Assembly: GCA_031285505.1 (NCBI GenBank)
Contig: JAITVZ010000125.1
Location: 1-64,000 of the forward strand
DNA: 64,000 bases
Origin: Propionibacteriaceae bacterium
Lineage (GTDB): Bacteria; Actinomycetota; Actinomycetes; Propionibacteriales; Propionibacteriaceae
Direction: 5' to 3'
A program made the position numbers and the translations under genes. Below are positions 20,375 to 50,297 of this stretch, piece by piece. Numbering within the stretch: the stretch's first letter is position 1; every line of letters starts with the position of its first letter. Below the pieces are notes generated by a model, which worked only from the letters and a program-made list of their open reading frames with translations, did not search any database and was not told the DNA's origin.

Positions 20375-21697
20375 ATGCTCTTGAGCTTCACTGTCAGCAA
20401 CTTCTGCTCCATAAGGAATGCACAAACCCTCTCAATGCTGAGGCCCGGTCAGGGCACCACCTCCCGGTTGGCGCTCGGTGAAGACCCTGCGGGTGGGGAC
20501 ATCTCGCCTCTGGCAGTAATCTTCGGAGCCAACGCTTCCGGAAAGTCGACACTCATCGCCGCCATGAGCTACACCATGTGGCTCGTCACCTCTTCAGCCA
20601 CCCGAGAGGCGACGAAGCCCCTGCCGATGCACCCGTTCCTACTTGACGACCAGTTCAAGTTTGAGCCATTCAGCGTCGAAACCCGTTTCACATGTGGCGA
20701 GCGGGAGTTCATCTATGCCTTTACGGTAACTAATGGCGAAATCAACACCGAGAATCTGCGCGAGGTGATCCGTCGTCCAACGCGGAGTTCGACCCAGACT
20801 TTATTCAACCGCACCATGCAGGGTGAAACCATTCAGGTAACAACGGCACCAACTCTCAAGGGTCACAAGAGAACGATCATCGCGGCCACGCGTCCAAACT
20901 CCTTGTTCCTCTCAAAGGCGGCTCAGGAGAACTACTTGCCGCTTATGGATGTCTACCGCTGGTTCGCCGACTTCACCTTCGGTGTTGGTCGCGGATCCCT
21001 GGCAACTACTCCCACTCAGTCGTCACTCGACCGCTTCGAATCGGACCCAGAGTTCGCCGCCTGGGTAGCCGACCTGCTCTTACAAGCAGACCTCGGAGTG
21101 ACCGATATCAGACTCAGCACGGCATCACGACCACCGAAGCACTTGGTGTCAGCCCTGACAGCAGCAATGGAGACGGAAGATCCGAACGAAATCGCTCGAA
21201 TCGAGGAGGAACTCGCCCGGTCCTCAAGACACCCGATCCTCAATCACCGCTCGGTCACAGCGGGCACACTTGGCCACCCTCTCCCATGGAACACCGAATC
21301 GAAAGGCACTCATCTACTCTGGGACCTGAGCAGTGACCTCTATCAAGCTCTGAAGACCGGCCGGACTTTCATCATGGATGATGAACTGAGTGACATGCAT
21401 CCACTGATCGTCAAATCGATCATCCAGGCATTTCAGAGTTCCACGAGCAACCCCCACGGCGCCCAACTCATCTTCACCTCTCACGACGTGACCCTACTGG
21501 GCACCTGGGCCGGTCAGGGTTACCAGTTGGAGCGCGATCAGATCTGGTTCACCGAGAAGGATTACGCCAGTGGAGCGACATCGATAATACCGCTGACAAA
21601 TTTCCGCACGCGGAAAGATGAAGACACAGAGCGTTTGTATCTCCAAGGACGACTCGGTGGAATGCCAGTAGTCGGCTATCTGCCCCCTGTTGATTGA
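20375..21697 (+). CDS. AAA family ATPase, RloA/AbiLi-like
   Basis: A 440-residue ATPase. FTVSNFCSIRNAQTLSML starts the AAA_15-type fold, VIFGANASGKSTLI is Walker A (Lys57), and GRTFIMDDELSDMHPLIVKSII with LIFTSHDVTLL is the ABC-like Walker B and switch region, as in OLD/RloA ATPases. Paired with RloB, this matches the two-component AbiL/RloAB phage-defence arrangement. AAGGAG lies eight bases before the ATG. A small AT-rich region with a TATGCT box lies about 35 bases upstream. The partner gene begins within 11 bases of the stop. Confidence 0.82.
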   Translation: MLLSFTVSNFCSIRNAQTLSMLRPGQGTTSRLALGEDPAGGDISPLAVIFGANASGKSTLIAAMSYTMWLVTSSATREATKPLPMHPFLLDDQFKFEPFSVETRFTCGEREFIYAFTVTNGEINTENLREVIRRPTRSSTQTLFNRTMQGETIQVTTAPTLKGHKRTIIAATRPNSLFLSKAAQENYLPLMDVYRWFADFTFGVGRGSLATTPTQSSLDRFESDPEFAAWVADLLLQADLGVTDIRLSTASRPPKHLVSALTAAMETEDPNEIARIEEELARSSRHPILNHRSVTAGTLGHPLPWNTESKGTHLLWDLSSDLYQALKTGRTFIMDDELSDMHPLIVKSIIQAFQSSTSNPHGAQLIFTSHDVTLLGTWAGQGYQLERDQIWFTEKDYASGATSIIPLTNFRTRKDEDTERLYLQGRLGGMPVVGYLPPVD

Positions 21698-21707
21698 AGA
21701 AGCCACC

Positions 21708-22379
21708 ATGGGGGATCACAAAGCGACCAGTCGCGAGCGTCGAAAACCGAACAGCCAGCGTCAAGCAAGCCGCCGCTTTCTAATCGTGTGCGAAGGCCAG
21801 ACCGAGGCGGCATACCTTCGCCAATTAAACAGAATACTAAGAGGCATTATCTCCATCGATCCGGTGATTGATCACTCATCACCTCAGTCGGTCGTGAACC
21901 GGGCCATATTGCTAAAGAACGGGGATCGCCGATTCGGTATTGCCGCGGCTGAAGCCGACACTGAGGTTTGGGCAGTCTTCGATTGGGATCAGCACTCCGA
22001 GCAAGTCCAAGCCGCCTGTTTGGATGCCAAATGGAATGGTGTCAAAGTGGTTCTGTCTAATCCATGTATCGAGGTTTGGCTCCACTGGCATTATGCCGAG
22101 TACATGAGACTTGGCTGTGATCAACATCGGGCACAGGCAGATCTCAAGAAAACACGCCCTGAGTATGTGAAAGGCCGCCGCACTCCGGAAGTGCCTCTCT
22201 CCGGTATCCGCGAGGCTGTCAATCGAGCGCGGCTGGCTGAGCAAAAGCATCAAGCAGAGGGACGGTCCTTCCCTGAAGATCGGCCATCGTCTAGCATGTA
22301 TATCTTAATCGATGCCCTCACCAAAGCCTGGGCGGACGCCCGGCCTGACGATCACTGCCCTCTGTGGCCAAATCCATAA
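21708..22379 (+). CDS. rloB: RloB family protein (AbiLii-like Toprim nuclease)
   Basis: About 223 residues. RRFLIVCEGQTEAAYLRQL carries the Toprim-like glutamate, VWAVFDWDQHSEQV the acidic D-x-D pair, and NPCIEVWLHWHY the family signature after it. RloB proteins pair with an RloA-type ATPase, and the pair corresponds to AbiL abortive infection. The ATG at 21708 has GAAGAAG upstream; a TTG at 21690 would instead overlap the ATPase gene. It converges on the DUF262 gene 55 bases away. Confidence 0.82.
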   Translation: MGDHKATSRERRKPNSQRQASRRFLIVCEGQTEAAYLRQLNRILRGIISIDPVIDHSSPQSVVNRAILLKNGDRRFGIAAAEADTEVWAVFDWDQHSEQVQAACLDAKWNGVKVVLSNPCIEVWLHWHYAEYMRLGCDQHRAQADLKKTRPEYVKGRRTPEVPLSGIREAVNRARLAEQKHQAEGRSFPEDRPSSSMYILIDALTKAWADARPDDHCPLWPNP

Positions 22380-22434
22380 CCTTGGCCTGCTGCTGGGGCC
22401 GGTCCACCATCGTAAACCAGCCTCCGTCCCAGGC

Positions 22435-24144
22435 TTAGACGTCATCCTCAGTGTGTAGGAAGTTGTTCAGTGTCTTAGCCAGGGCCAACCGTCGCCGGTC
22501 CCGAAAAACCTCGAACTGATCGCCCTGATCCAGACCTTCCGAGAAGTCGACAGCCTGAGCCAGGAGATCCGTCGACTCAAAGCTCTGAGCATAGTCGTGG
22601 GGAGCCTTGTCGCTAATCACCTTGTTCGTTTTGGCGCCGATGAAGGCCAGATTGGCGATGTCATCAATCTCACGCGAACCGAGCTCTGGGCGCAGGGCTT
22701 TCATGTAAGCCTTGGGGAAGATGTGATGATACTCAATCCGGTTGGCCTTGTCAGCGTAATTGGCCGCGATGTTCAACTTGGTCTGCCAATCCCGGGCGCC
22801 GCCGCTGGCGAACGCGATAAAGAGGGTCTTGAACACTCCGCTGAGGGTGCTCCGCCCGATCAGATCATCCGCCGAGAAGCCCAGCTTACCGAACTGCTGA
22901 CGCAGGCGACTGGTCAACTCGGTGGGCCCGCCGCCGTCCCGGATGACCGCCAGGTCCTGGTCAAGGATGGTCTCGGTCGAACCCCGTGAGTAGCGACCCT
23001 TGGCATTGGCGATCAGCAACCAGCGGCGATAGGACCGCTCCTCTTCACCGGACAACACGTAATCGCGGCTGTGGGCCCAGGCCGCCGTCGCCACGATCAG
23101 GAATGGTGAGGTCAGTTGGTTCGAGTTGGCGATGCCGCAGTTCTTCTGCAGAAAGTCGATGGCATGATTGGTGGCGTGCTGTGCCTTTGCCCAGGCCCAT
23201 TTCAGCTGATCCGCAGTGAATCCGGCGACGACATGGAAATGCGACTGATTGGTCAGCAACGCCACCATGACCCGCAGGGGCACAGCGTAATCAAGCTCGA
23301 ACCCCCGCTTCGACAACTCACCCAGATAATCGTCAAACAACTGGAGTGAACCCGGCCACTTGGCTGTCACTTGCGCCATCGCCAGGTCGGCGCTGCGCAG
23401 CTTGGCGCCCAAAGAGTTGACTCGCACGAAAATCTCCGTCACCTCCTCGTAGGACTTGTCCTCCTCCAGGATGTCCACCCGATATTCATAGTCTCGGATG
23501 GCCCGAAGAGTGGCGAGACGCTGGAGGTAGCGCTCATATTTGGGATCATCCCAGCCTGTCACACCAGCCTGTTTGAGTATCTCCGTGTCGGACTGGGTAA
23601 AGACATCCGTGACACATACCCAATTGGGTAGGGCAGCCAGACGCTTGGTGTACACGATGAACGCCCGCCGGTTGGCTCTGCGCGACAGTTCATCGTGGCC
23701 GAGATCATCGGTCACGTCATTCAGATCGTCTTCCGGCTCGTCCGCACCGGAATCGGCGGCCTCAGTGACAACCTCCAACTGATCTGGATGATCGAGGTTG
23801 AACAGGATGTCAATCGGTTTGACCCGGTTTCTGACCGTGACTTTCTGACCCTTGAGCACCGCCGTCAACGAGGTCAGGCGCTGTTGGCCATCGAGTAACA
23901 ACAAGGGTTTCGTTGTCACTGGCGCATGATCCGTGTCGACGGCCAAGCTGTGCGTGCCGGTGATGGCGGTGCTCGGCTGCCAGGCCAGGATCACCCCCGA
24001 CGGGTAACCGCGGTAAAGGCTATCGAGGAGGTCCCGCACCTGGGTCTTCGTCCACACGTAACGCCGCTGCATCTCCGGTAGCTGCAACTCACCCTGGTCG
24101 ATTTTCGCGACCAGCTCCCACACCTTCATATCAGTCTTCGACAT
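22435..24144 (-). CDS. DUF262 protein with C-terminal HNH-like motif (GmrSD/BrxU-like)
   Basis: A 569-residue protein. KIDQGELQLPEMQRRYVWTKTQVRDLLDSLYRGYPSGVILAW and LLLLDGQQRLTSLTAVLKG are the DUF262 ParB-like nucleotide-binding core; near the C-terminus RIEYHHIFPKAYM with IANLAFIGAKTNKVISD is the HNH/DUF1524-like nuclease pattern. GmrSD-like proteins of this build restrict modified phage DNA. The ATG at 24144 starts with GATAGGA upstream. The start is 172 bases from the LacI 3' repeat at 24317, so this gene forms the right end of the module between the two LacI copies. Confidence 0.82.
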   Translation of the reverse strand: MSKTDMKVWELVAKIDQGELQLPEMQRRYVWTKTQVRDLLDSLYRGYPSGVILAWQPSTAITGTHSLAVDTDHAPVTTKPLLLLDGQQRLTSLTAVLKGQKVTVRNRVKPIDILFNLDHPDQLEVVTEAADSGADEPEDDLNDVTDDLGHDELSRRANRRAFIVYTKRLAALPNWVCVTDVFTQSDTEILKQAGVTGWDDPKYERYLQRLATLRAIRDYEYRVDILEEDKSYEEVTEIFVRVNSLGAKLRSADLAMAQVTAKWPGSLQLFDDYLGELSKRGFELDYAVPLRVMVALLTNQSHFHVVAGFTADQLKWAWAKAQHATNHAIDFLQKNCGIANSNQLTSPFLIVATAAWAHSRDYVLSGEEERSYRRWLLIANAKGRYSRGSTETILDQDLAVIRDGGGPTELTSRLRQQFGKLGFSADDLIGRSTLSGVFKTLFIAFASGGARDWQTKLNIAANYADKANRIEYHHIFPKAYMKALRPELGSREIDDIANLAFIGAKTNKVISDKAPHDYAQSFESTDLLAQAVDFSEGLDQGDQFEVFRDRRRLALAKTLNNFLHTEDDV

Positions 24145-24316
24145 GATCGAAATCCTATCGGTAGCGTCTTGGATTGGGGTCAGGGGCGTCAAGCCGGGCA
24201 GTGAAACCGCGCACCCGCCGCTAATCCAGCCCACCCACCACTACGAGTGTATGAAAAACGCGGGGGTATTCAACGTTTTAGCCGCCATATTCGTACACTC
24301 GCGAATCGGCACTGCC

Positions 24317-34307: not shown

Positions 34308-34518
34308 CAGTTGATCTCCGAACATGTGGTGGCGTCAGCAGTCAGCCTAACCAGCGCCAGGGCCGCCCGAGCCTGGAACGATCCAGTCTGCAGGGGGAAT
34401 TCGGGGGATGCGTCAATCGGCTTCATCCATCGGCAGGAAGGAAATGCTGACAGACATCGGGAAGAGGCGAAAGTACGTTGCTTTTGTGGGCAGTATGATG
34501 ATCCTCAGGAGGTACGTC

Positions 34519-34764
34519 GTGAACACAGCCACCCTGTCAGCCAGAGGCCAGATCGTCATCCCCGCAGCCGTGCGCCGGGCCGCGAAATTCAGGCCCGGCG
34601 ATCGACTGACGATCATTATCGGTGAGAATGACGGCGAGATCCGGATCCGTCGCCAAGAAAGCCTCGATGAAATCGCCGACCGCCTGTCGCGTTATGCCAA
34701 ACCCGGCATTGAACCATTGCTGGACGTCCACGAGTTTTACAATCAACGCGAGCCGCGGGTGTGA
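34519..34764 (+). CDS. AbrB/MazE-type antitoxin
   Basis: An 81-residue protein: NTATLSARGQIVIPAAVRRAAKFRPGDRLTIIIGENDGEIRIRR is the swapped-hairpin AbrB DNA-binding fold. AGGAGG lies seven bases before the GTG at 34519, which excludes a 37-codon longer frame. The C-terminal half (DEIADRLSRYAKPGIEPLLDVHEFY) should bind the PIN toxin encoded three bases downstream. Confidence 0.87.
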   Translation: MNTATLSARGQIVIPAAVRRAAKFRPGDRLTIIIGENDGEIRIRRQESLDEIADRLSRYAKPGIEPLLDVHEFYNQREPRV

Positions 34765-34767
34765 CCC

Positions 34768-35169
34768 ATGCCAGCATCACTTGACACCAATGTCCTCTTG
34801 CGATTCGCCATGAAGGATGTCCCAGATCATTATGACCGTGCCCGGGCGCTGCTTGGTCGCCAGGGGGCGTCATTCGCAGTAGCGGATGCCGTTTGGATTG
34901 AACTTGCTTTCGCCTTGGACCGCCATTACCAACTCGACCGACCGGCCATCGTCGATGTCATCACCACTCTTGTCAGCATCGACAATCTGGAGGCAAACAG
35001 CTCTCTCATCGAAGCGGCCTGCGCCTCGTTCGCCGTGCACCCCAAATTGAGTTTCGCCGACTGCTACCTCGCCGCCAAAGCAGCTGACTGCCAGCGGGTA
35101 CCCCTCTACACTTTCGATGAAAAGCTCGCTCATCAGCATCTCGCCGCCGAATTGGTGCCATTGCACTGA
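34768..35169 (+). CDS. vapC: VapC-family PIN-domain toxin
   Basis: A 133-residue PIN ribonuclease: SLDTNVLLRFAMKDVPDHY has the first Asp, ADAVWIELAFALDRHY the Glu, HPKLSFADCYLAAKAADCQRVPLYTFDEKLA the distal acids. It is the AbrB-paired type of VapC. Its stop codon lies in the first of two 26-bp direct repeats (35166-35191 and 35225-35250). Confidence 0.87.
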   Translation: MPASLDTNVLLRFAMKDVPDHYDRARALLGRQGASFAVADAVWIELAFALDRHYQLDRPAIVDVITTLVSIDNLEANSSLIEAACASFAVHPKLSFADCYLAAKAADCQRVPLYTFDEKLAHQHLAAELVPLH

Positions 35170-38925: not shown

Positions 38926-41304
38926 GTGATCAAGGAAACCACAACTGCAAAGCGGTCACGCCCGTCGCACTCCATGCCTGGCCCGATGACTCAGGAAGTC
39001 ACGCTGGAGGAACCCTTACCAACTCGCGGCCAAACAACCCCCGATGGGGCCGCAACCGCTGAAAGGCCCAACTTCGAATGTGATTCGGCCTATCGCGCCT
39101 TGGGCGCCTTTGACCTGGCCCAAAGTGACGAAGATGAAGCCGGCCGGACCCGGCTCGATCAAGAGGGTCGCTCACCAACGAAGCGCATCTACGGCGCCTG
39201 GAAGACCGCATTGGAGGACTTGTCGTCGCGCCAAACCGATCTCCTCATCACCCCTGCCCGGAGCTCTTTTGCCCTCTTCTATGCGGCCTGGCATGGCGGC
39301 GTTTACCCCGGCACCGCGCAAACCACACCAGGCTTCTCGCAGTTCTTCAAGAAAGACCCAGAGGGGCAACGCCGCATCATCTCGGATCAATTCATCACCC
39401 TGGCCAGCCAGGCCGATCCAGACCTATTGGCGCGCCCACAAGACAGAGATGACCCCAAAGTCTTCATTTTGGATGATTTCCGGCTGAATCGCATCAAACT
39501 GGACGACACCTGCCGCAAGACCTGGATGGCGTTACTGGCCAGCCAGCACACGACGACTGGAGAGCCTGTTATCCAGGGCGATGCCGTGTTTGACACCGTT
39601 TATGACGCTATAGCTGACGGGGTGAGCGACGGGCTTGACGGGCAGGACACGGCAACAACCAACACGGACCTGCTAGCCCAATTGAAAGCTGATGACCTCC
39701 ACGACGGATGGATCAACAACCGCTACATTCATGCAAAGCCAATTCCCGAGCAGCGCGACCTGGACCCTCGGGGGCGGAACCCCTGGCACCGTCATCATCC
39801 CTTTCTCGCTGATGTTGCGGCCCGTCGCACGGCAGTGCTCCACCGCTACATGAATCAAGTCTGCCTGGCCAACTCGACACCTCTGGTGGCCTGGTCCCCC
39901 CTGACCGATCCCGCCGCCGTGCCGTTCGAACAGTTCAGCGCACTGCTCTATGACCAAGAATCCTGGCACTGGGTGGAGATCACCGCTGCCGCCAACGAGG
40001 GCCATGGACGACGTGATTTTGTCCTACTTCCGCAGGGCCTCCTGGGCGAGAGCATCAGTAAGGCGCTCGGCGAGAGTGTCGGCCTGGTGGACTATGTGGC
40101 CATCTATGCCAGCACCTCTCCCGAGGGGTTTGAGACTCGCTTCAGTTTGTCGCCAATGGTCCGATTGAAGGCTTTGGATGACACAGCAGTCACAAACTGG
40201 GTCGGGAAGCTCCTAGGCCGATCTGTGAAAGAGATCATGTCCGATTATGACGTCCGCCGTGGCGAATTGGCCGCTGGCGAAGCGCCATCGTCCGGCGAGG
40301 ATGGTCCTCTCGACGACAACACATATTATTCTCCCGCGACCTTCTGCGACCAGATCACCAAGGAAGGCGTGCAGCTGCTGTCATTCATGCTCGGACGCCG
40401 GGTCATGGAGGCGATGACGGCCCACCTCAAAAACAGGGTGGCCGAATTGAGAATCGCTGATCCCCAGCAGGCAGACAGCCTGATCCGGCCAGAAAACCGG
40501 GAGTACGCTCGCCTTCTGGTCGGTGACAAGCTGTTCCGCTTGATCGATGGCGCCGAGCCGGGAATGCAGTGCCCCTTACCCGATGAATCGTTGCTGGCTG
40601 AATCAGCAGAAAGATCGATCTGGGAGCCCCGGACGCTGCCCGAAATGTGGCCGGGTCTTGATCCGAGTGTCACCAACATACAGATCGGTGACGATCCGCT
40701 TGGTCGAATGCTGTCGGATGAGAACACCCAGTGGATTATTCGAGATCACCACGGTCTTGGTGACTACTCCGTCGAGGACGAACCCGGCGAGGAAACCGCA
40801 TCCCAGCCAGACCTCAACATTTACGACGAACTCATGGGGTATTGTCGATTGAGCCGTGAGTGTGGGGTGAGTGACTCCACTACCGATACCGCCGATCCCG
40901 CGAATGGCCATGTTCCCTGGAAAGATCCGTCGGGCCAATGGCACGCTTGCAGTAATCTGGAATGCCGCCAGTGGAAGGGGGGGATCCTGCATCGCCGCTC
41001 TGATAAGACACGCACCCTGACGCAGATCAAGAATAAACTTGCGAAACGTTGGCAAGCCCGCCACTGCGACCAAGCTGAGGTGGCAGCCCAATCGCTGCCC
41101 TCCAACCCGCAGGCTCATCTGACCCCGCCACGACTTCGCCTCTATCTACTGGTGCTCGGCGCCATCGGCTTTGCCGTGCCGACGGTCAGGAAGTCGGACG
41201 ACGGTATGAGTTTGGAAGAAGCCTTCGCCAGAGGTGAGTCCGGTCGGCCGACATATTCCAATCCTCTTGGCGGGCTATGGGCGCCGGGGTCGCTGACAAG
41301 CTGA
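38926..41304 (+). CDS. 792-residue protein of unknown family, partner of the RES-domain gene
   Basis: I do not recognise this family. The start is taken as GTG at 38926 with AGGA upstream; ATGs at 38974 and 38986 are alternatives. Residues 1-75 are low complexity. Conserved-looking patches follow: LSSRQTDLLITPARSSFALFYAAWHGG (about 100-130), NPWHRHHPFLADVAARRTAVLHRYMNQVC, and VGKLLGRSVKEIMSDYDVRRGEL. CSNLECRQWKGGILHRRSD near residue 685 could bind metal weakly but lacks a second Cys pair. There is no signal peptide or clear membrane span. It precedes the RES-domain gene on the same strand by 206 bases. Confidence 0.7.
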   Translation: MIKETTTAKRSRPSHSMPGPMTQEVTLEEPLPTRGQTTPDGAATAERPNFECDSAYRALGAFDLAQSDEDEAGRTRLDQEGRSPTKRIYGAWKTALEDLSSRQTDLLITPARSSFALFYAAWHGGVYPGTAQTTPGFSQFFKKDPEGQRRIISDQFITLASQADPDLLARPQDRDDPKVFILDDFRLNRIKLDDTCRKTWMALLASQHTTTGEPVIQGDAVFDTVYDAIADGVSDGLDGQDTATTNTDLLAQLKADDLHDGWINNRYIHAKPIPEQRDLDPRGRNPWHRHHPFLADVAARRTAVLHRYMNQVCLANSTPLVAWSPLTDPAAVPFEQFSALLYDQESWHWVEITAAANEGHGRRDFVLLPQGLLGESISKALGESVGLVDYVAIYASTSPEGFETRFSLSPMVRLKALDDTAVTNWVGKLLGRSVKEIMSDYDVRRGELAAGEAPSSGEDGPLDDNTYYSPATFCDQITKEGVQLLSFMLGRRVMEAMTAHLKNRVAELRIADPQQADSLIRPENREYARLLVGDKLFRLIDGAEPGMQCPLPDESLLAESAERSIWEPRTLPEMWPGLDPSVTNIQIGDDPLGRMLSDENTQWIIRDHHGLGDYSVEDEPGEETASQPDLNIYDELMGYCRLSRECGVSDSTTDTADPANGHVPWKDPSGQWHACSNLECRQWKGGILHRRSDKTRTLTQIKNKLAKRWQARHCDQAEVAAQSLPSNPQAHLTPPRLRLYLLVLGAIGFAVPTVRKSDDGMSLEEAFARGESGRPTYSNPLGGLWAPGSLTS

Positions 41305-41434
41305 TCGTTGGGGGCTCCCCCAATACGCCATCAGTCCAGCCTTGCAGGCCAAATGAGCGAATTCAGTCCAGCACCGGTTATTGATGCGACGCCGCATACT
41401 CTTGCTTAACGCAACCTCAATGACAAATTACTGC

Positions 41435-41463
41435 TTGCACAGAGCTGGCGCGCAAAGTATCCT
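41435..41463 (+). promoter_or_regulatory. sigma-70-type promoter for the RES-domain gene
   Basis: TTGCAC at 41435-41440 and TATCCT at 41458-41463 are separated by 17 bases, the optimal spacing. It lies 47 bases before the ATG, so the RES gene can be expressed independently of the upstream gene. Confidence 0.55.
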
Positions 41464-41510
41464 GTTTGACTAAGACCAAACCGGTGTCGAGGTCGAAGAG
41501 AGGAACTACC

Positions 41511-43172
41511 ATGGGGGGCATGGCAGTCGGGAATGCTGCAACTGTGGTAGACGCCCTTGAGGACTATCTCCAGTTCGTCGCGAACAATTGTCTGCCGACA
41601 GCAGGTCATTATGAGGCAGTGAGACTGTGCGACGCCACAAACGGCAAGTATCAGGAGTTACGGACTAAACAAACAGCCCTGGTCCGGTCACTCAAATCGA
41701 TGGCTGATCACGGCGATGACCGCACTAAGCTCGACGCCTACCAGCTGGTCGCCGGGCTCTGCGACCTCATCACCACCTGCTCGCAAGCCACCGTCTGGCA
41801 GTCAGATGACCAACGCATCCACGCCCTCGGTTACCTACTGCTAGACCTGTACAGCTGGTTCGTGCCATGGGACACCTTCAAATGCACACCCATGCCGGGA
41901 GCGATAGCCCAGTCGGGGGTGCCTCAGCTCCTACCCGATTTAGCGGCCGGAATCATGCATCGCTGCCTCCAACTCATGCGCTCTCAAAGGCCCCCTACTG
42001 GCGGAGACCCCGTGGCTGGCATCAAACAGGCATTGGGCGCCATCTTGGAACACATTCACCCAGGGGTCGCCAGTCCTTCAAGAGCAGCTAACATCATCCA
42101 GGATATCCTCAATAATTTGATACCAGCAGCAAAACCGCCCTGGCATTCAGAGGGCGAGCCCACGCCGGCCAAGCCCACGCCGGAGGACCGTTATCGGGTG
42201 TCGGACGGCCTCAACTGGTGGAGCTGCGCAAAGCTGCAAGGCCCTATTTGGGAGACTGTCGCCAGCATCCTAGAAGATCGGCTGAAAAATGACCCCAAGC
42301 GCGACTACTTCAAGGGGTGGCCTGGCCTCATTTTTGCCTACGATCTGGCTTGGCCTGATAATAAGGAACAAAAGCAGGGCAGTGGTCACGATGTAACATA
42401 TGATCTCGCTGCCTGGATTGACAAGAAACTCAAGTTAAGGTCCCACTGGCACGAAAATGCGGCGGACTGCGACAAGGCACGGGGCGATATCCTGAAAAAT
42501 GTGAGCGATCCTCACCCTGGTTCAGATCCAAACGGCACCCCACAGGATGGCTTCCACAAGTTGAGCCAGGACATGTACTGGCGGGTCCACCGAACTGGGG
42601 GCAATCCATTTCAGGGCGCAAGGGACTGGTCAAACGACCCCGCCGCAGCACAGCCACCAACCGGGCGATACACATTGCCCTTGGAGGAGGATGCAGCCTC
42701 GCTCTATCTTGGGATGACAGCGGAATGTGCCCTGCGTGAAATGTTCGCGGACAAGCTGGTGCTCGATCTGCCATCGGTGGACCGTTCCCTGTCACTGATC
42801 AATTGGAGCGGCGCTAAAGCGGCTCGCATCCTCGATATCGACGTCATCGCCAAGAGGGCAGGAGTTGCTGACCAGCTGGAGTACATGACCTGGGGGCAAA
42901 CGGCACCGATCGCGATAGAAGCGCACCAAGAGGGCTTTCACGGCATGATCTACAAGAGTGTCAAGGTCACGACCGACCGCAATGTTGTGCTCTTCACTCG
43001 AGGGGCCACCCCCACCGTGCCCGGCGTGTTCGCCATCGAGCGCACGCAACAACTGTTCGCCTCGACCGAATTCTGGACTTACGTCAAGGCGCGGGCCTGC
43101 GAGGGGGCGCTGACTTTTCTCGGCCGGATGCCCGACGATGTCAGGTTGAAGAAGGTGGCCAGCGCGACATAA
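41511..43172 (+). CDS. large protein with C-terminal RES (NAD-consuming) domain
   Basis: A 553-residue protein. Residues 1-340 match no family I know; they are largely helical with a Trp-rich patch (NWWSCAKLQGPIWETVASI). Residues 350-520 fit the RES domain: MYWRVHRTGG (Arg358), GRYTLPLEEDAASLYLGMTAECALREMF (Glu410), and EGFHGMIYKSVKV followed by NVVLFTR (Ser483), so the R, E and S residues that name the family are present in order. RES toxins such as MbcT and Res degrade NAD+, but are normally about 150-230 residues and paired with a small Xre-type antitoxin, absent here. GAGG precedes the ATG at 41511; a TTG 15 codons earlier is possible. Confidence 0.75.
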   Translation: MGGMAVGNAATVVDALEDYLQFVANNCLPTAGHYEAVRLCDATNGKYQELRTKQTALVRSLKSMADHGDDRTKLDAYQLVAGLCDLITTCSQATVWQSDDQRIHALGYLLLDLYSWFVPWDTFKCTPMPGAIAQSGVPQLLPDLAAGIMHRCLQLMRSQRPPTGGDPVAGIKQALGAILEHIHPGVASPSRAANIIQDILNNLIPAAKPPWHSEGEPTPAKPTPEDRYRVSDGLNWWSCAKLQGPIWETVASILEDRLKNDPKRDYFKGWPGLIFAYDLAWPDNKEQKQGSGHDVTYDLAAWIDKKLKLRSHWHENAADCDKARGDILKNVSDPHPGSDPNGTPQDGFHKLSQDMYWRVHRTGGNPFQGARDWSNDPAAAQPPTGRYTLPLEEDAASLYLGMTAECALREMFADKLVLDLPSVDRSLSLINWSGAKAARILDIDVIAKRAGVADQLEYMTWGQTAPIAIEAHQEGFHGMIYKSVKVTTDRNVVLFTRGATPTVPGVFAIERTQQLFASTEFWTYVKARACEGALTFLGRMPDDVRLKKVASAT

Positions 43173-43539: not shown

Positions 43540-45837
43540 ATGTCCCCTCTGTTGCCATATTGCCTGGTCGGATTGGTCGTGGTCTTGGTGCCCGGGCTGG
43601 CCATCGGCGCCGTCGCCCGCCAACGCGGCTGGCGCTTGTTCAGCCTGGCCCCTTGGATATCAGTCAGCGTCATCGCCTGTGCTGCCATCGTGGCCGACTG
43701 GGTCGGTCTGGCTTGGGGTTGGTTGCCAGTGGTCGCCTTGGCGATCATTGCTGGTGGTGCGGTCTGGTTGATTTGTCGTTTTGCCGTCGCCGGTGGCCGA
43801 CCCAAAGCAGTCGGCCGACGTCAGGCCACGGGTCAGGGTGGAGGCATCAGCGGCGCTGAGGGTGACCGGATGGCTGCCACCAGCGGGGCTAGTAGCGCTG
43901 GTCGACCCAGTGCATTCGACGGCGGCATTGCCCATTCGGACGGGCGGGTCGACATCACGCCGTCAAGTCCCAGCCGCCACCGCCGCAACCCCTGGCTGTG
44001 GGGGGCTTGGCTGATCACCGCCACCTTCGGGACGGTCGAGTGGCTGCGGCTGATCGGGCCGGCCGACTCGATCTCGCAAACCTATGACGCCATCTTCCAC
44101 CTGTCGGCCCTGCGCTGGATCATCGATTCCGGCAATGGCTCTTCCCTGACTTTCAGTGCCGGATTGGTCAGCGACCAGTCGTTCTTCTACCCGGCGGCCT
44201 TTCACGATCTGACCACGTTGATCGCGCAACTGCTTGGGTCGACCAATGTCGTTTATGCCTGCAACGCCTGCGTCTGGCTGATGATGGCCGTCATCTGGCC
44301 GCTGGGCATTTTCGCCCTGATCGACGCCCTCTTGCCCGCTTTGAGCCGCACCGGCCTGCTGGCAGCCGCCATCATCATCAGTGGCAGCGCCGGGCTGCCC
44401 TTGCTAATGCTGTCCTGGGGGGTGCTCTACCCCAACTGCCTGGCATTCATTCTGCTGCCGGCGGGCTTGGCGCTAGTAGCCCGGCTCCTGGGGTTGAACG
44501 CCGGCTCGGCAATCCTCGGCGACAGGGCGGTGTTCAACGCCGCCAACCCGAAGGCCAGCCTCGATGGCACCGCAGTCGACCCCACAGTCTCCCCCTTGAG
44601 CACTGCCATCATCTTCAAGGCGCCTACCCCCCCAGCTCACAGCCTGGGCATCACCACAACCGATGGCCCGATCGGCTCGAACGACACCGCTGCTGCACAG
44701 GTGCTGGCCCGCAGCGGCACGCTGGTCGATGGCTTGTTCCTCGTGATCGGCCTGCCGGGATTGTTCCTGGCCCATCCCAGCGGTCTGCTGGCCTTGATTG
44801 CCATCAGCAGTCCACTGCTCCTGGTTTGGGCCTGGCGTGGCCTGTGGCGCAACTGGGTCGGGCGCCAGATCATCGATCGGCGGCGACTGTGGATCAGTGG
44901 CAGTTTGCTCATCGCTTTTGTGATCATCTGGCTGTTCGCCCGCACCGGTGAGGCCCGACCGCCGATCAACAGCTGGGAGGCGTCCGTCGGCGAGTTTCTG
45001 CTGGCGGCGCCGGGCCAGCTCCAACCGGCTTGGTTGCTCGGTGCTCTGATAATCACCGGCCTTTACTGGCTGGTGCGACGCCGCCAGTATCACTTCCTTC
45101 TGGGCCCGGTGATGGTGCTGCTCATCCTCTGGCTGGCAGCCTCGGCCATGCCCGCCGGCGACTGGCGTGACCTGCTGACAATCGGTTTCTACGACGATGC
45201 CATCCGCCTCGGTGCTCTCAGCACTGTGATATTGCTGCCAGTGGCGGTGATCGGCGTCGAAGCCAGTCTGGAACGCCTGCGTCAAACCCTGGCACGGCGG
45301 GGGATCACCAGTTGGCAGGCCGCCATTGACTTGGCGGTGTTGCTGGTCCTCTTCATCGGCATCGCCATGTCATCGGCCCTCAACGCCGCCATTGAGCAGG
45401 GGCGCTGGTCATACGCCATCGCCGCTGACTCCCCGCTGCTGGACAGCGACGAATACGCCCTGATCATGCAACTGGATGAGCAGATCCCGACGACAGCCGT
45501 AGTGGCCGTCGACCCCTGGAACGGCTCATCGCTGGCCTACCCTTTGGCCGGGGTTCCCACCAGCAGCCACATGGTGGACTTCGCCAGCGAAGCCGACCAA
45601 GCGATCAACGCCGACCAAGGGCTCATCCAGTTCCGATTGCGCTATGCCGCCAGTGACCCGGCCGTTTGCGCCGCCCTCGACCGGACCGGTGTCAGCTACG
45701 CCCTCAGCTTCGGCTACCGCGAGGTCCACGAAGGTCAGCATCCAGCTCCAGGCTTCGACCAACTGAGCAGCGCCGAGGGATTCGTAGAAGTCGACCGCGT
45801 CGGCCAAGCGGCGCTTTACCGGATCGACGCCTGTTAG
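43540..45837 (+). CDS. DUF6541-type multi-span membrane protein
   Basis: A 765-residue integral membrane protein: MSPLLPYCLVGLVVVLVPGLAIGAVARQRGW begins the first of about 14 hydrophobic spans. EWLRLIGPADSISQTYDAIFHLSALRWIIDSGNGSSL and the C-terminal VVAVDPWNGSSLAYPLAG match the convergent paralogue at 47121-50297, including the final ALYRIDAC. DUF6541 proteins resemble lipid-linked sugar transferases by topology and lie in actinobacterial surface-glycan loci; activity is not established. Two low-complexity loops (residues about 85-145 and 345-390) are inserted between spans. Confidence 0.8.
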   Translation: MSPLLPYCLVGLVVVLVPGLAIGAVARQRGWRLFSLAPWISVSVIACAAIVADWVGLAWGWLPVVALAIIAGGAVWLICRFAVAGGRPKAVGRRQATGQGGGISGAEGDRMAATSGASSAGRPSAFDGGIAHSDGRVDITPSSPSRHRRNPWLWGAWLITATFGTVEWLRLIGPADSISQTYDAIFHLSALRWIIDSGNGSSLTFSAGLVSDQSFFYPAAFHDLTTLIAQLLGSTNVVYACNACVWLMMAVIWPLGIFALIDALLPALSRTGLLAAAIIISGSAGLPLLMLSWGVLYPNCLAFILLPAGLALVARLLGLNAGSAILGDRAVFNAANPKASLDGTAVDPTVSPLSTAIIFKAPTPPAHSLGITTTDGPIGSNDTAAAQVLARSGTLVDGLFLVIGLPGLFLAHPSGLLALIAISSPLLLVWAWRGLWRNWVGRQIIDRRRLWISGSLLIAFVIIWLFARTGEARPPINSWEASVGEFLLAAPGQLQPAWLLGALIITGLYWLVRRRQYHFLLGPVMVLLILWLAASAMPAGDWRDLLTIGFYDDAIRLGALSTVILLPVAVIGVEASLERLRQTLARRGITSWQAAIDLAVLLVLFIGIAMSSALNAAIEQGRWSYAIAADSPLLDSDEYALIMQLDEQIPTTAVVAVDPWNGSSLAYPLAGVPTSSHMVDFASEADQAINADQGLIQFRLRYAASDPAVCAALDRTGVSYALSFGYREVHEGQHPAPGFDQLSSAEGFVEVDRVGQAALYRIDAC

Positions 45838-45887: not shown

Positions 45888-45998
45888 CGATCACGCCACC
45901 CAACAGCCGCCAGGAGGCTAGCCACTCGCGCCTAAACAGTTTGCCGAGCATCGCGGCCCTCGCCACGGTTTTCATGGCAACTGTTGGAAATTTCACAA

Positions 45999-47102
45999 AT
46001 GTCCCAGAAACTCCCTCATGGTATAGGCATGGCTCCAATCTCAAACCTGCCTCCAGCACCGGCCGAGTCTCATCCTTTTCTGGCGTTACGCCGGGATCCA
46101 GTGTTCCGGGCTGTGTTTGGCAACCAGATGCGCCCCGGGCCGCTTCGGTCCCTGTTGTCCAGCATCCTGCGTCTGCCCAGTGAGGAGCTGCAACACCTGG
46201 AGATCATTGATCCTCGGTTGGGGCGCAGACACGTCGACATGAAGGAGACCGTGGTGGACGTGCGCGTTCAAACACGCAGCGGCCGAATCATCTCAGTGGA
46301 GATCCAGTTACAGAACGAGTCCGGCTTCAATGATCGATTGATCTACTACGGCAGTCGGATCCATTCCGAACAACTGAAGCCCGGCCAGGGCTACGCGACA
46401 ATCTCCCAGACGATCGTCATTGCCATCACGAACTTCGTCGTGTTCCACGACCAAGGCCCTTACACCACCAAACTGAGTATGACCTCAGACGACGGCCGTC
46501 GTCGGCTCTCAAACTCTCTGCAGGTATGGGTGCTTGAGCTGCCCAAAGTGCCGGAAACGACGGATGAATCACTATTATGGGATTGGCTATCACTGGCGAA
46601 GGCTTCAAGCCAAGAGGAGTTGGACATGATCGACACCAGAAACCCTGACCTGGCCGAGGCTGTCTGCACGGTCAGCTTTTTCAACGCTGAGTACACCGCC
46701 CGCTACTTTGCCCTGCGCGAAGAGATGGCTGAACACGACCGCGCCCAATCCCGCATCGAGGCCCAAAGACAGGGTCGAACTGAAGGGCTGGCTGAGAGCC
46801 GGGCCGAGGGGCTGGCTGAAGTGCTGGCCGAAGGGATGGCCGAAGGGCTGGCCCAGGGGTTGGCTGAAGGCCGGTTCGAGGGGATGGCCGAAGGTCGAGC
46901 CGAAGGTCGAGCCGATCTCATCAGACGTCTCCTTGCCGGTGGCCTTTCAGCTGCGGACGTCGCCCACCTGACCAGCATCGACCTGGAGGAAATTGAGCGT
47001 CTGATTCCCCGCCTTGAACCTGAGGTCGATGAGTCACCAGTGGAGCGTCCCGGTGCGACCACTGAGCGGGAATGCGCACCGTCTTCGCCGGAAGACAGGT
47101 GA
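45999..47102 (+). CDS. Rpn-family PD-(D/E)XK nuclease / putative transposase
   Basis: A 367-residue protein. FLALRRDPVFRAVFG starts the family pattern, and ETVVDVRVQTRSGRIISVEIQLQNESGFNDRLIYYGSRIHSEQL holds the nuclease core (D...E-x-Q). Rpn proteins are recombination-promoting nucleases related to IS transposase-like genes. The C-terminal third has degenerate repeats of AEGLAEG/AEGRAEG followed by a small helical domain (LIRRLLAGGLSAADVAHLTSIDLEEIERLI). The start could also be ATG at 46029. It lies between the 3' ends of two convergent DUF6541 paralogues, 18 bases from the second. Confidence 0.85.
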   Translation: MSQKLPHGIGMAPISNLPPAPAESHPFLALRRDPVFRAVFGNQMRPGPLRSLLSSILRLPSEELQHLEIIDPRLGRRHVDMKETVVDVRVQTRSGRIISVEIQLQNESGFNDRLIYYGSRIHSEQLKPGQGYATISQTIVIAITNFVVFHDQGPYTTKLSMTSDDGRRRLSNSLQVWVLELPKVPETTDESLLWDWLSLAKASSQEELDMIDTRNPDLAEAVCTVSFFNAEYTARYFALREEMAEHDRAQSRIEAQRQGRTEGLAESRAEGLAEVLAEGMAEGLAQGLAEGRFEGMAEGRAEGRADLIRRLLAGGLSAADVAHLTSIDLEEIERLIPRLEPEVDESPVERPGATTERECAPSSPEDR

Positions 47103-47120: not shown

Positions 47121-50100
47121 TCAGCAGGCGTCAACCCGGTACAAAGCGGCCGCGCCGACTCGAGCCAGCTCGGTGAAGCCGGGGGCCTGGGCGAGGTTGT
47201 CCAGACCAGGGGCGGGATGATCACCGCCATCGATGCTGCTCGATGGGAAGTCAAGGGCGTAGCCGATCCCCAGGTCAGCCAGTGCCGAGCAGACCGTTGG
47301 CTCACTGGCGGCGTCACGCAAATGAAATTGGATGATCCCCAAATCGGGGCTGGCGGCCTGATCCTGGTTATAGACCCAGGCGACATCATGGCTGCTGCTG
47401 GCCAGACCAGTCAGGGGGTAGACCATCGACGATCCATCCCAGGCATCGGTGGCGATGACGGCGTCAGCCTCGACCAGGCCCGGCAGTTGGTCGATCAGGG
47501 CCTGCTCATCGCTGGTCAGCAGCGGCGAATTCGCCAACAGGGCATAGGACCAATGCCCTTGACTGATCGCTTGGCTGATCGCCCCGGCCTGGCTGCCCAG
47601 CAGCAGGCCAAGCAGTGCCAGTAAGACGACTACGGCGCTGAGCCCCGGCGCTGGCCGGTTGATCCAGGCCCGAAGACGCTCTATCAGGCCGACCACCAGC
47701 CAATTGAAAGCGATGATGGTCAACGGGGCGATCACCACCACAGCCAGCCCGGCCAAGCGGTGGGCGTCAGCCGCGAACCCACCGACCAGCAGATCGCGCC
47801 ACCAGGAGTCACTGCCGCCCGAGGCGACCATCGACAGGGAGGCGGCGACCAGCGCCGGCAGCAGCCACCAGCGATATCGCCGCTGACGACAGGCGACATA
47901 GAGCCCCACCACCGTCAGACCGGCAATCAGCCATGACGGCCACAGCCCACCCATCGCCCCAGTCAGCAGGTCACCGAAAGACGTTGTCAGACTGGTGATT
48001 GGCGCACGTGATTCTGGCTTGGGCATCAGCCACCAATAGGCGGCCACGCCCGCCAGGCCGACCAGCGCCAGCAGGGCGAACAGGGGCCAGCGATGCGGGT
48101 GGCGCTCGAAGCCTTGGCGATAGCGCCGCCAGCACCAGACCAACCACAGCGGCGCCGCGCAGGCCAGCAATGCCTGAAATCCGTTGGGATGTGCCAGATA
48201 GAGACCGATCATCCCGAAGCCCAAAGCGATCCATTCGGCGGCGACGGGTCCGGCCGTTGGTCGGCCTGCGGCGACGGGGCTGGCCGACAGTTGGTGGACG
48301 GCGCGATCAGCAGCGGTCACTGAGCGCTCCGGGGCGGACTGGGCCGCCTGGGCTCCAGCCTTACGCCAACCTACTTGTGATCCCCGTGCCATCGACCGCC
48401 CTGCGGGCAAGGCGCCGCTCGCGCCAATGGCGGCTGATCCGGCCAGCCCGAGGCGCCGGATCAGCAAGGCCAGGCCAGCGGGCATCAGAACGATCGATAG
48501 GCATTGTGGATAGAGCACCCCCCAGGACAGCATCCAGATCGGCAGCGGGGCGAACGAACAGGCGAGGACACCAGCCCCGATCAGACCGACCCGGCCCAGT
48601 CGCGGCGCCAAGGCATTGACCAACGCGAACAACGACAACGGCCAGATGATGGCCATCATCACCCAGGCGACCGCATTGGCCGCGAAAACCACCGAATCGG
48701 CCCCGACCAACTGAGCCACCAGGGCAGCTAGGTCATGGAAGGCCGCCGGATAGAAGCTGGCCGGGCCGGTGCCGGCCATGGTGTTGAAATCTAGTGAAGA
48801 GCCGTTGCCGGTGTCGATGATCCAGCGAATGGCGCTGAGATGGAAAATGCTGTCATAAGTTTGTGAGACGGCATCAGCTGCACCCAACAGTCGAGCGAAT
48901 TGCCAGCTCGCCAGAATCATGGCCAGCAGCAGACCGGCCAGCTGCGCCAGTGATCGGGTCAAACCAGCGGCAGCGATAGGGGCGGCAGCCGAGGTCGAGC
49001 TGATCGCCTGCCCGGAGTCGTCGGATTGCGTTATCGGGCCATATCCAGCTGGGTTGACCGCAGTCAATGGGTTTGTTTTTTCCTCAGATGAATGGCTGAC
49101 TGCCGCGGCCAATCCGTCAGCGCCGAGGCTGCCCGCTGCAGCGCTGTGACGATGATCTGGTATCTGCCCCGCTTCTGGCCAGGCATCACTGATGCCCAAA
49201 CTGGCGGCCAATCGATCGCCCGATACCGTCGACAACTGTTCCAGTCTGGATAAATCACTGACCTGGCTGGCGCTGGCCGTGGCTTCGAGTGCCCAAGGCT
49301 CAAGACCGGGATTGAACCAGCGCCCGGCCACGGAGCCATCAGCGCCAGTCGCAGCGGTGTTGACGGCTTCTCCCCCGGCCCCCTGCGCTGCTGCCGGATC
49401 GGCCTGACCCGTCACTGGCGACACAAACGCTGGATCAGGCCCATCCCAGAATCTGCTGGCGGACTGGCCACCGACATCTCCCCAAGGACGCTTGGCCGCC
49501 AGATCGTTGGCTCGGAGACGATTGGCCATCAGCTCCGCCCGGGCCGCCGCTATCATTTCGCTGGCGCGACTGACACCGGCCACGCCTGCCAAGGGGCCAG
49601 TTGCGACCCACGCCGCTGGAGTCGCATCGACGTCGCCAGCGCCCCAATGGTCGGCAGTCTGCGGCGGCGGCTCGGGTTGAGGATTGTCGCTGATACGGTC
49701 AGTCTCGCCGACCCTGGCGGCACTGGCCGTGGCCCCACTGCCCGGCGAGTCAGGCGTCAGGGCTCGGTCGACAAGAAAACCATTGGGGATCTGGCCACTG
49801 GCAGGCTCAGCACTGGACCCCGGAGTCACCAGTTGGCTGGCGCCTGCCGCCGGATCCGGCTGGCAAGCCGCCCTGGACGCTGGAGCCCCGGACAAACCGG
49901 CATCAGCCGCCACGGCGACGGGTTGGCCGGCGGCCGCGGGCAGACCGAGAATGGCCTCCTCGGTCAAGAAATTGCCGGGCTGCTGGTCACTACTGCCGCC
50001 AGCGACCAGGCCGTCGGGCTGAGGGAGACCAGGCGCCCTTGCTTCTCCCGGGTGGCGAAAGAGGTAGTCCCATCGGAAAAGCAGGCCGAGCGCCAGCAGA

Positions 50101-50297
50101 ATCACCAGTGGCAACCAACCCCATTGCAGTCCCACCCAGCGGGCCAGCACCGCCGCCACCGCGATCAGGGCGATCGACAGCCACGGGGCCACCGTCAGCC
50201 AGGTCCAGCCGCGCAATCTGATCAGCCAACCGAGCACCAGGCCCGGCGCCAGCACCAATACCAATGCGACGGCGCAATAGGGTAACAACGCGAAAAT
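47121..50297 (-). CDS. DUF6541-type multi-span membrane protein with probable ATT start
   Basis: A 1058-residue paralogue of the 43540 protein. Translation is placed at ATT (50297): AAAGGAG ends seven bases before it, and the resulting M-F-A-L-L-P-Y-C aligns without gaps to MSPLLPYC of the paralogue. The alternative TTG at 50288 has poor spacing. Spans 1-4 are followed by an inserted 300-residue Ala/Gly/Pro/Asp-rich segment (about residues 75-385), then the conserved core SWQFARLLGAADAVSQTYDSIFHLSAIRWIIDTGNGSSL. It follows the TagH-like ATPase gene, and probably takes part in surface-glycan assembly. Confidence 0.8.
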   Translation of the reverse strand: MFALLPYCAVALVLVLAPGLVLGWLIRLRGWTWLTVAPWLSIALIAVAAVLARWVGLQWGWLPLVILLALGLLFRWDYLFRHPGEARAPGLPQPDGLVAGGSSDQQPGNFLTEEAILGLPAAAGQPVAVAADAGLSGAPASRAACQPDPAAGASQLVTPGSSAEPASGQIPNGFLVDRALTPDSPGSGATASAARVGETDRISDNPQPEPPPQTADHWGAGDVDATPAAWVATGPLAGVAGVSRASEMIAAARAELMANRLRANDLAAKRPWGDVGGQSASRFWDGPDPAFVSPVTGQADPAAAQGAGGEAVNTAATGADGSVAGRWFNPGLEPWALEATASASQVSDLSRLEQLSTVSGDRLAASLGISDAWPEAGQIPDHRHSAAAGSLGADGLAAAVSHSSEEKTNPLTAVNPAGYGPITQSDDSGQAISSTSAAAPIAAAGLTRSLAQLAGLLLAMILASWQFARLLGAADAVSQTYDSIFHLSAIRWIIDTGNGSSLDFNTMAGTGPASFYPAAFHDLAALVAQLVGADSVVFAANAVAWVMMAIIWPLSLFALVNALAPRLGRVGLIGAGVLACSFAPLPIWMLSWGVLYPQCLSIVLMPAGLALLIRRLGLAGSAAIGASGALPAGRSMARGSQVGWRKAGAQAAQSAPERSVTAADRAVHQLSASPVAAGRPTAGPVAAEWIALGFGMIGLYLAHPNGFQALLACAAPLWLVWCWRRYRQGFERHPHRWPLFALLALVGLAGVAAYWWLMPKPESRAPITSLTTSFGDLLTGAMGGLWPSWLIAGLTVVGLYVACRQRRYRWWLLPALVAASLSMVASGGSDSWWRDLLVGGFAADAHRLAGLAVVVIAPLTIIAFNWLVVGLIERLRAWINRPAPGLSAVVVLLALLGLLLGSQAGAISQAISQGHWSYALLANSPLLTSDEQALIDQLPGLVEADAVIATDAWDGSSMVYPLTGLASSSHDVAWVYNQDQAASPDLGIIQFHLRDAASEPTVCSALADLGIGYALDFPSSSIDGGDHPAPGLDNLAQAPGFTELARVGAAALYRVDAC

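Follow-up and report, generated by a model that had tools for sequence, protein, structure and literature searches.

What is a RES-domain protein doing next to a 792-residue partner, with no separate antitoxin gene at its side? The question is raised by positions 38926 to 43172 of the 64,000-nucleotide stretch analysed here (the window; contig JAITVZ010000125.1 of Propionibacteriaceae bacterium assembly GCA_031285505.1, positions 1 to 64,000). Both open reading frames (ORFs) of the locus are real and lie within the positions that an initial annotation, made from the sequence alone, had given:

38926..41304, + strand: P1, the 792-aa partner, GTG start, with a phosphoribosyltransferase (PRTase)-like domain, a middle alpha/beta region and a C-terminal winged-helix-like domain (ORF, family profile, family model, Foldseek)
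41305..41465, + strand: P1-P2 intergenic gap of 161 nt (206 nt to the ATG at 41511), without a sigma-70-like promoter or an Rfam match
41466..43172, + strand: P2, the RES effector protein, 568 aa from the TTG start or 553 aa from the ATG at 41511 (ORF, Pfam)

We consider it probable (roughly 0.62) that P1 and P2 belong to a rare sensor-effector family in which P1 would regulate a RES effector that depletes nicotinamide adenine dinucleotide (NAD+), apparently an undescribed two-gene system. Five results computed directly carry this reading: the RES domain with its active-site residues, the fold of the partner at the level of its family, the association and occasional fusion of the two proteins, the antitoxin homology of the relatives, and the exchange of effectors.

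The Pfam profile search that the initial annotation had proposed placed the RES domain of P2 (PF08808, residues 372-512) above the curated cut-off (35.6 bits against 23.2, E 1.2e-8), and P2 is the sole RES gene of its genome. Residues are counted here from the TTG at 41466; R373, E425 and S498 are R358, E410 and S483 when counted from the ATG at 41511. Across 15 aligned RES sequences, some fused and some stand-alone (A13), R373, R401 and E425 are invariant and Y414 is near-invariant. The annotation had named the Arg, the Glu and the Ser as motif residues; the first two hold across this group, and the serine, S498, is present in P2 but Ser is not conserved at that position among the 15 sequences. 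A profile of the same alignment matches MbcT (6fkg) at 4.4e-13 among solved structures. MbcT is an NAD+ phosphorylase (PMC12457610), and RES-Xre systems comprise NAD+ phosphorylases, hydrolases or ADP-ribosyltransferases (PMC12457610, PMC11535050). P2 is predicted to break down NAD+, via hydrolysis or phosphorolysis. Along the chain, four parts were distinguished:

41466..42185, + strand: P2 residues 1-240, N-terminal region, weakly conserved, with a layout resembling that of the relatives (alignment)
42249..42455, + strand: P2 residues 262-330, position of the cis antitoxin-like module (G-W ... L-W part; leave-one-out family profile, the module homology itself being seen in relatives)
42558..43010, + strand: P2 residues 365-515, RES domain with R373, R401, Y414 and E425 (Pfam, alignment, profile)
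43011..43169, + strand: P2 residues 516-568, C-terminal tail (W-x-Y ... R-x-P-D; alignment, family profile)

The C-terminal tail is common to the fused family described below; the stand-alone RES toxins that were compared did not show it.

Does the pair recur? A single-sequence search of 97 relatives gave one P1 homologue, at locus L006, whose next gene encodes a second RES protein, and stepwise profile building raised the number of loci besides the window to ten. Nearly all of the resulting 11 loci are from Propionibacteriaceae: L006, L013, L014 and L036 belong to the same genus as the window and L031 to L035 to other genomes of the family, while L018 is on a short contig that binning assigned, with the host uncertain, to Spirochaetia. 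A RES protein is adjacent to the partner or, once, fused with it in 9 of the 11 loci. The two genes are separated by short gaps in L006, L013, L014 and the window, overlap in L018 and L031, and stand tail to tail, 34 nt apart, in L032; L033 encodes a single 1509-aa chain, partner then RES, of which L034 carries a split version, the result perhaps of a frameshift or of two genes that overlap. The RES frame of L031 (657-1823) is interrupted once, by an in-frame stop directly behind the first RES motif, which marks either a broken gene or a mis-assembly. Because the layouts vary and one fusion exists, we argue for a functional link between the two genes, and the co-occurrence search suggested by the initial annotation has thus come out in favour of a pair. 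That P1 and P2 are chance neighbours would be in keeping with adjacency at a single locus and with nothing beyond it; it is ruled out by the recurrence of the pair, full fusion and tail-to-tail arrangement included, the more so as any RES gene at all occurs in only 32 of 148 genomes of the class (about one in five). Of 19 genomes from the genus, 5 have the partner, and its site differs among them. Since class- and phylum-wide samples (395 and 396 genomes) gave no further partner, the family seems to be mostly restricted to Propionibacteriaceae, with L018 as the exception. No homologues of the partner or P2 were found in plasmid records, and none in viral contigs apart from one chance-like match (L005:5001-5057; 19 residues, 74%, to P2 residues 236-254), which lies in a frame antisense to phage genes and was treated as chance.

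Where, then, is the antitoxin? The region before the RES domain in the relatives follows the consensus I-x-V-x-D-W-x-G-x-x-x-Y-P-x-F-Q-F ... G-W-x-x-A-x-W. A profile of this module, run against 118 whole genomes of the class, hit seven places outside its own genome, six of them directly upstream of a RES gene. The stand-alone antitoxin-like proteins found there match Pfam Xre_MbcA_ParS_C (2.2e-4 to 0.041) and Rv2175c_C (down to 4.6e-4), all below the curated cut-offs. The reverse profile, built from these stand-alone antitoxins, ranked seven fused proteins, each at E <= 0.01, above the 1055 background ORFs, with L018 and L031 at about 1e-6, and the helix-turn-helix (HTH) family HTH_17 was detected in L031 at 1.5e-4. 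Because the profiles match both ways, we read the RES proteins of the relatives as antitoxin-RES fusions, in which a predicted Xre/MbcA/ParS-type antitoxin module is fused in cis before RES. Seven fused RES domains form one group in the RES-domain tree (support 92/94), which suggests a single fusion event. Two statements of the initial annotation need adjusting in this light: the absence of a nearby Xre-type antitoxin is right insofar as no separate gene adjoins P2, whereas relatives carry the module fused before RES; and the N-terminal part of no known family is only partly so, an antitoxin-like module occupying that place in relatives.

P1 itself matched nothing in Pfam, NCBIfam or PADLOC, and the initial annotation had left it unassigned; at the level of the family an assignment can now be proposed. 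The phosphoribosyl pyrophosphate (PRPP) loop motif, hhhh(D/E)(D/E)xxx(S/T)GxT, is canonical in L018 (VILLDDTRVSGGTL), L031 (LAVDDVEITGATM) and L014 (LIADDTCISGETM) and near-canonical in L006 and L035, while P1 keeps the acidic pair only. Two regions of P1 are concerned:

39460..39522, + strand: P1 residues 179-199, PRPP-loop position VFILDDFRLNRIKLDDTCRKT, with the acidic pair kept, the S/T-G-x-T part degenerate and a short insertion (alignments A9/A12)
40993..41250, + strand: P1 residues 690-775, C-terminal winged-helix-like region (...LGAIGFAVPTVRKSDDGMS...GES), boundaries approximate (alignment, family model)

Pfam Pribosyltran falls on the loop in L018 (0.05) and L035 (0.29), and the partner-family profile has one PDB sequence match only, to a PRPP synthase and likewise at the loop (E 0.66), none of these being significant singly. 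Comparison of the partner family with five PRTase groups from these genomes by hhalign gave E values of about 0.001-0.025, always at the loop only, whereas the controls, which were column shuffles and unrelated alignments, stayed at about 0.6-1. An AlphaFold model of the L018 partner, made with an 11-sequence alignment, reached a mean local confidence (pLDDT) of 75 and a predicted template-modelling score (pTM) of 0.81; an earlier prediction with 5 sequences was poor (pLDDT 47), and its matches were taken only as a lead. Foldseek aligned the L018 model with many hypoxanthine-guanine PRTases (probability mostly 0.87-0.99) and, in a viral library, with a Tupanvirus PRTase (0.97) and a winged-helix protein (0.93), and a helix-helix-strand-strand succession at the C-terminal end of the family model fits a winged helix. 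The partner family is thus predicted, from the L018 homologue, to have a PRTase-like (type I) fold followed by a C-terminal winged helix. As the PRPP loops are partly degenerate, we infer that the PRTase fold serves ligand sensing or regulation and not catalysis. A role of the PRTase-like protein as a nicotinamide-salvage antidote was rejected, because the PRTases that act on nicotinamide belong to another fold, type II. When all 11 partners were aligned, no stretch proved conserved enough for a scan of the collection.

Is the window copy still a working member? Leave-one-out family profiles recover P1 at E 1.6e-15 and P2 at 4.9e-6 (residues 262-562), which by sequence confirms both as members. 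P1 is nevertheless the most diverged partner of the family, and the pair as a whole appears to have a degenerate HTH/wing and PRPP loop beside an intact RES site. The window copy has diverged, possibly with inhibition moved to P1, or it is eroding. We judge it unlikely that it is a relic of a real family, its RES domain kept and its PRPP loop and cis antitoxin module already gone. Erosion would explain why the S/T-G-x-T part of the loop is missing from P1, why the antitoxin HTH/wing (YPxFQF in relatives) is not recognisable in P2, and why the P2 branch is one of the two longest in the RES tree; yet no stop interrupts the 792 codons of P1 or the 568 of P2, and every core RES residue is intact.

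The partner also occurs with effectors other than RES. In L035 (6624-9597) it is followed by a metallo-beta-lactamase-fold protein (PADLOC RTasMBL 6e-8, LmuA 1e-7), and in L036 (3820-9928) by a doubtful, degenerate RES-like protein and a KAP nucleoside triphosphatase (NTPase; PADLOC PDC-S20 4e-27, QatA 4e-18). The RES-like protein of L036 gives a weak hint of RES similarity only, its catalytic Glu position being replaced, and the L036 layout is possibly a separate type of system. Defence systems typically keep one partner and exchange their effectors, and the swapping of RES, metallo-beta-lactamase and KAP NTPase proteins beside this partner fits the sensor-effector reading; it is the strongest argument for defence, though it rests on two loci. 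The same exchange, together with the sporadic distribution of the family and the degenerate loops in about half of it, makes it very improbable that the pair is a metabolic regulator of NAD or nucleotide salvage, with the PRTase-like protein as an enzyme and the RES protein trimming NAD+, even if some members (L018, L031, L014) have the canonical PRPP loop.

How could the pair work? In the sensor-effector mechanism that we propose, P1, with its PRTase fold and winged helix, would keep P2 silent as a regulator or sensor, probably with at least part of the inhibition exerted in cis, because most relatives carry the antitoxin module in the same chain as RES. A trigger detected by P1, for instance an altered level of PRPP or of a nucleotide, or a change in nucleic acid, when a phage infects or stress sets in, would release P2, which would break down NAD+ and leave the cell arrested in growth or killed. 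Thoeris, DSR and short pAgo are TIR- or SIR2-based NAD-depleting abortive-infection systems, and the proposed logic, a sensor partner releasing an NAD-degrading effector, resembles theirs, whereas the effector family here is RES.

Phage defence is the purpose we favour, tentatively, and it is unproven. Defence genes stand near two of the pairs. The drmB and drmC genes of DISARM lie upstream of the L006 pair; membership in DISARM, which comprises drmA, drmB and drmC with a methyltransferase, was rejected, as P1 and P2 match no Drm model and drmB and drmC are neighbours only of that one pair. In the window, AbiL/GmrSD-like genes form a defence cluster 14.5 kb from the pair (20375-24234), composed of an AbiLi-like AAA ATPase (PADLOC 2.8e-76), an AbiLii/RloB protein (3.7e-24; Pfam RloB 1.2e-30) and, on the opposite strand, a GmrSD-like protein (Pfam GmrSD_N 2.9e-28, PADLOC HEC-05 1.8e-43). 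Slightly less probable still is the wider proposal of a modular immune family, in which a PRTase-winged-helix sensor of infection (through nucleotides or PRPP) would unleash interchangeable effectors, mostly an antitoxin-RES fusion depleting NAD+.

The main rival to defence is an ordinary toxin-antitoxin role. P1 would then be a second, trans-acting antitoxin or regulator, and the pair would serve selfish maintenance or stress dormancy, much as MbcTA or NatRT do. Both the RES effector and its cis module derive from RES/Xre-MbcA-ParS toxin-antitoxin parts, the occurrence is patchy (the 5 of 19 genus genomes, with differing sites), and known RES systems work in persistence or stress (PMC11535050, PMC12457610). 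Set against this, the partner also travels with defence-type non-RES effectors, is far bigger than usual antitoxins of such systems and is carried by no plasmid record, and we regard a toxin-antitoxin variant without an immune role as doubtful.

The locus shares with RES-Xre modules (MbcTA, NatRT, ParST, GndRX) the R/R/Y/E core and, in relatives, the Xre/MbcA/ParS-type module immediately before RES. It differs from them in that this module sits in the same chain in relatives and is unrecognisable in the window copy, in that the RES protein is two to three times the usual length (568 aa against about 150-260 aa), and in its constant PRTase-winged-helix partner. No separate Xre/MbcA/ParS antitoxin gene adjoins P2 among the ORFs and Pfam matches, and the initial annotation was right that this is not a standard RES-Xre pair. 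PRTase and winged-helix proteins are effectors of type III retrons (PMC12548924), which likewise combine the two kinds of domain in a defence-like setting, whereas in this family RES seems to be the effector and the PRTase protein the sensor. Membership in type III retrons was rejected: no reverse transcriptase was recognised among the ORFs around P1/P2 or the related loci, which were read by eye rather than by profile, the window locus has no Rfam match, and no PADLOC model matches any of the 11 partners. With Lamassu and DRT systems that have metallo-beta-lactamase effectors the family shares the L035 protein that matches LmuA and RTasMBL; its constant gene, unlike theirs, encodes a PRTase-like protein, and an SMC-type LmuB or a reverse transcriptase was not seen. 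The literature, of which coverage was partial, yielded no account of a PRTase-like protein as partner of a RES protein, so that novelty is unproven.

Several results weigh against a sensor-effector family with the window pair as a member. The S/T-G-x-T part of the PRPP loop is kept in only about half of the family and is degenerate in P1 too, the single hidden Markov model scores of the partner to PRTases stay below threshold, the Foldseek E-values of the L018 model are weak (0.05-0.2), and there is the lack of any PADLOC match among the partners. On the side of P2, the leave-one-out antitoxin-module profile fails to reach the protein, the whole-family profile aligns only from residue 262, and its RES domain falls outside the group of seven fused RES domains, on a long unresolved branch. 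Finally, most loci lie among housekeeping genes and not in defence islands. The initial annotation had offered a sensor-effector defence system as one reading of the locus; the sensor-effector half of that reading fits the constant partner and variable effectors, and the defence half stays a hypothesis.

In the window, P1 and P2 are flanked by a glycosyltransferase-like gene and a large membrane-protein gene, and their G+C contents (0.59 and 0.58) fall below the 0.64 of the flanking genes, which would fit acquisition by horizontal transfer. The promoter that the initial annotation had assigned to the RES gene was not recovered: a sigma-70 scan, which covers actinobacterial promoters poorly, found no promoter-like site in 41305-41510, and the sigma-70-like sites of the region are at chance level (3 against 2.1 expected). 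A GC-rich hairpin of fourteen pairs upstream of P1 (38605-38635) is a possible terminator of the preceding glycosyltransferase-like gene. Elsewhere in the window, an AbrB/MazE-type antitoxin followed by a PIN-domain protein makes up a VapBC-like toxin-antitoxin pair (34408-35169), and a PD-(D/E)XK nuclease-family transposase with a repetitive EGxAEG-type tail (45984-47102; Pfam 6.8e-35) sits between similar, oppositely oriented large membrane proteins (43540-45837 and 47121-50288).

RES toxins are widespread, and a 2024 study states that no RES toxin-antitoxin system had been implicated in immunity (PMC11535050). The P1-P2 family gives a concrete system in which to test an immune role: its RES effector, accompanied by a large sensor-like partner, appears to have absorbed its antitoxin module and is replaceable by defence-type effectors. 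If the reading as a modular immune family is true, it would be the first immune role of RES enzymes and would come with a new sensor class, adding a PRTase-fold protein to the candidate infection sensors of bacteria.

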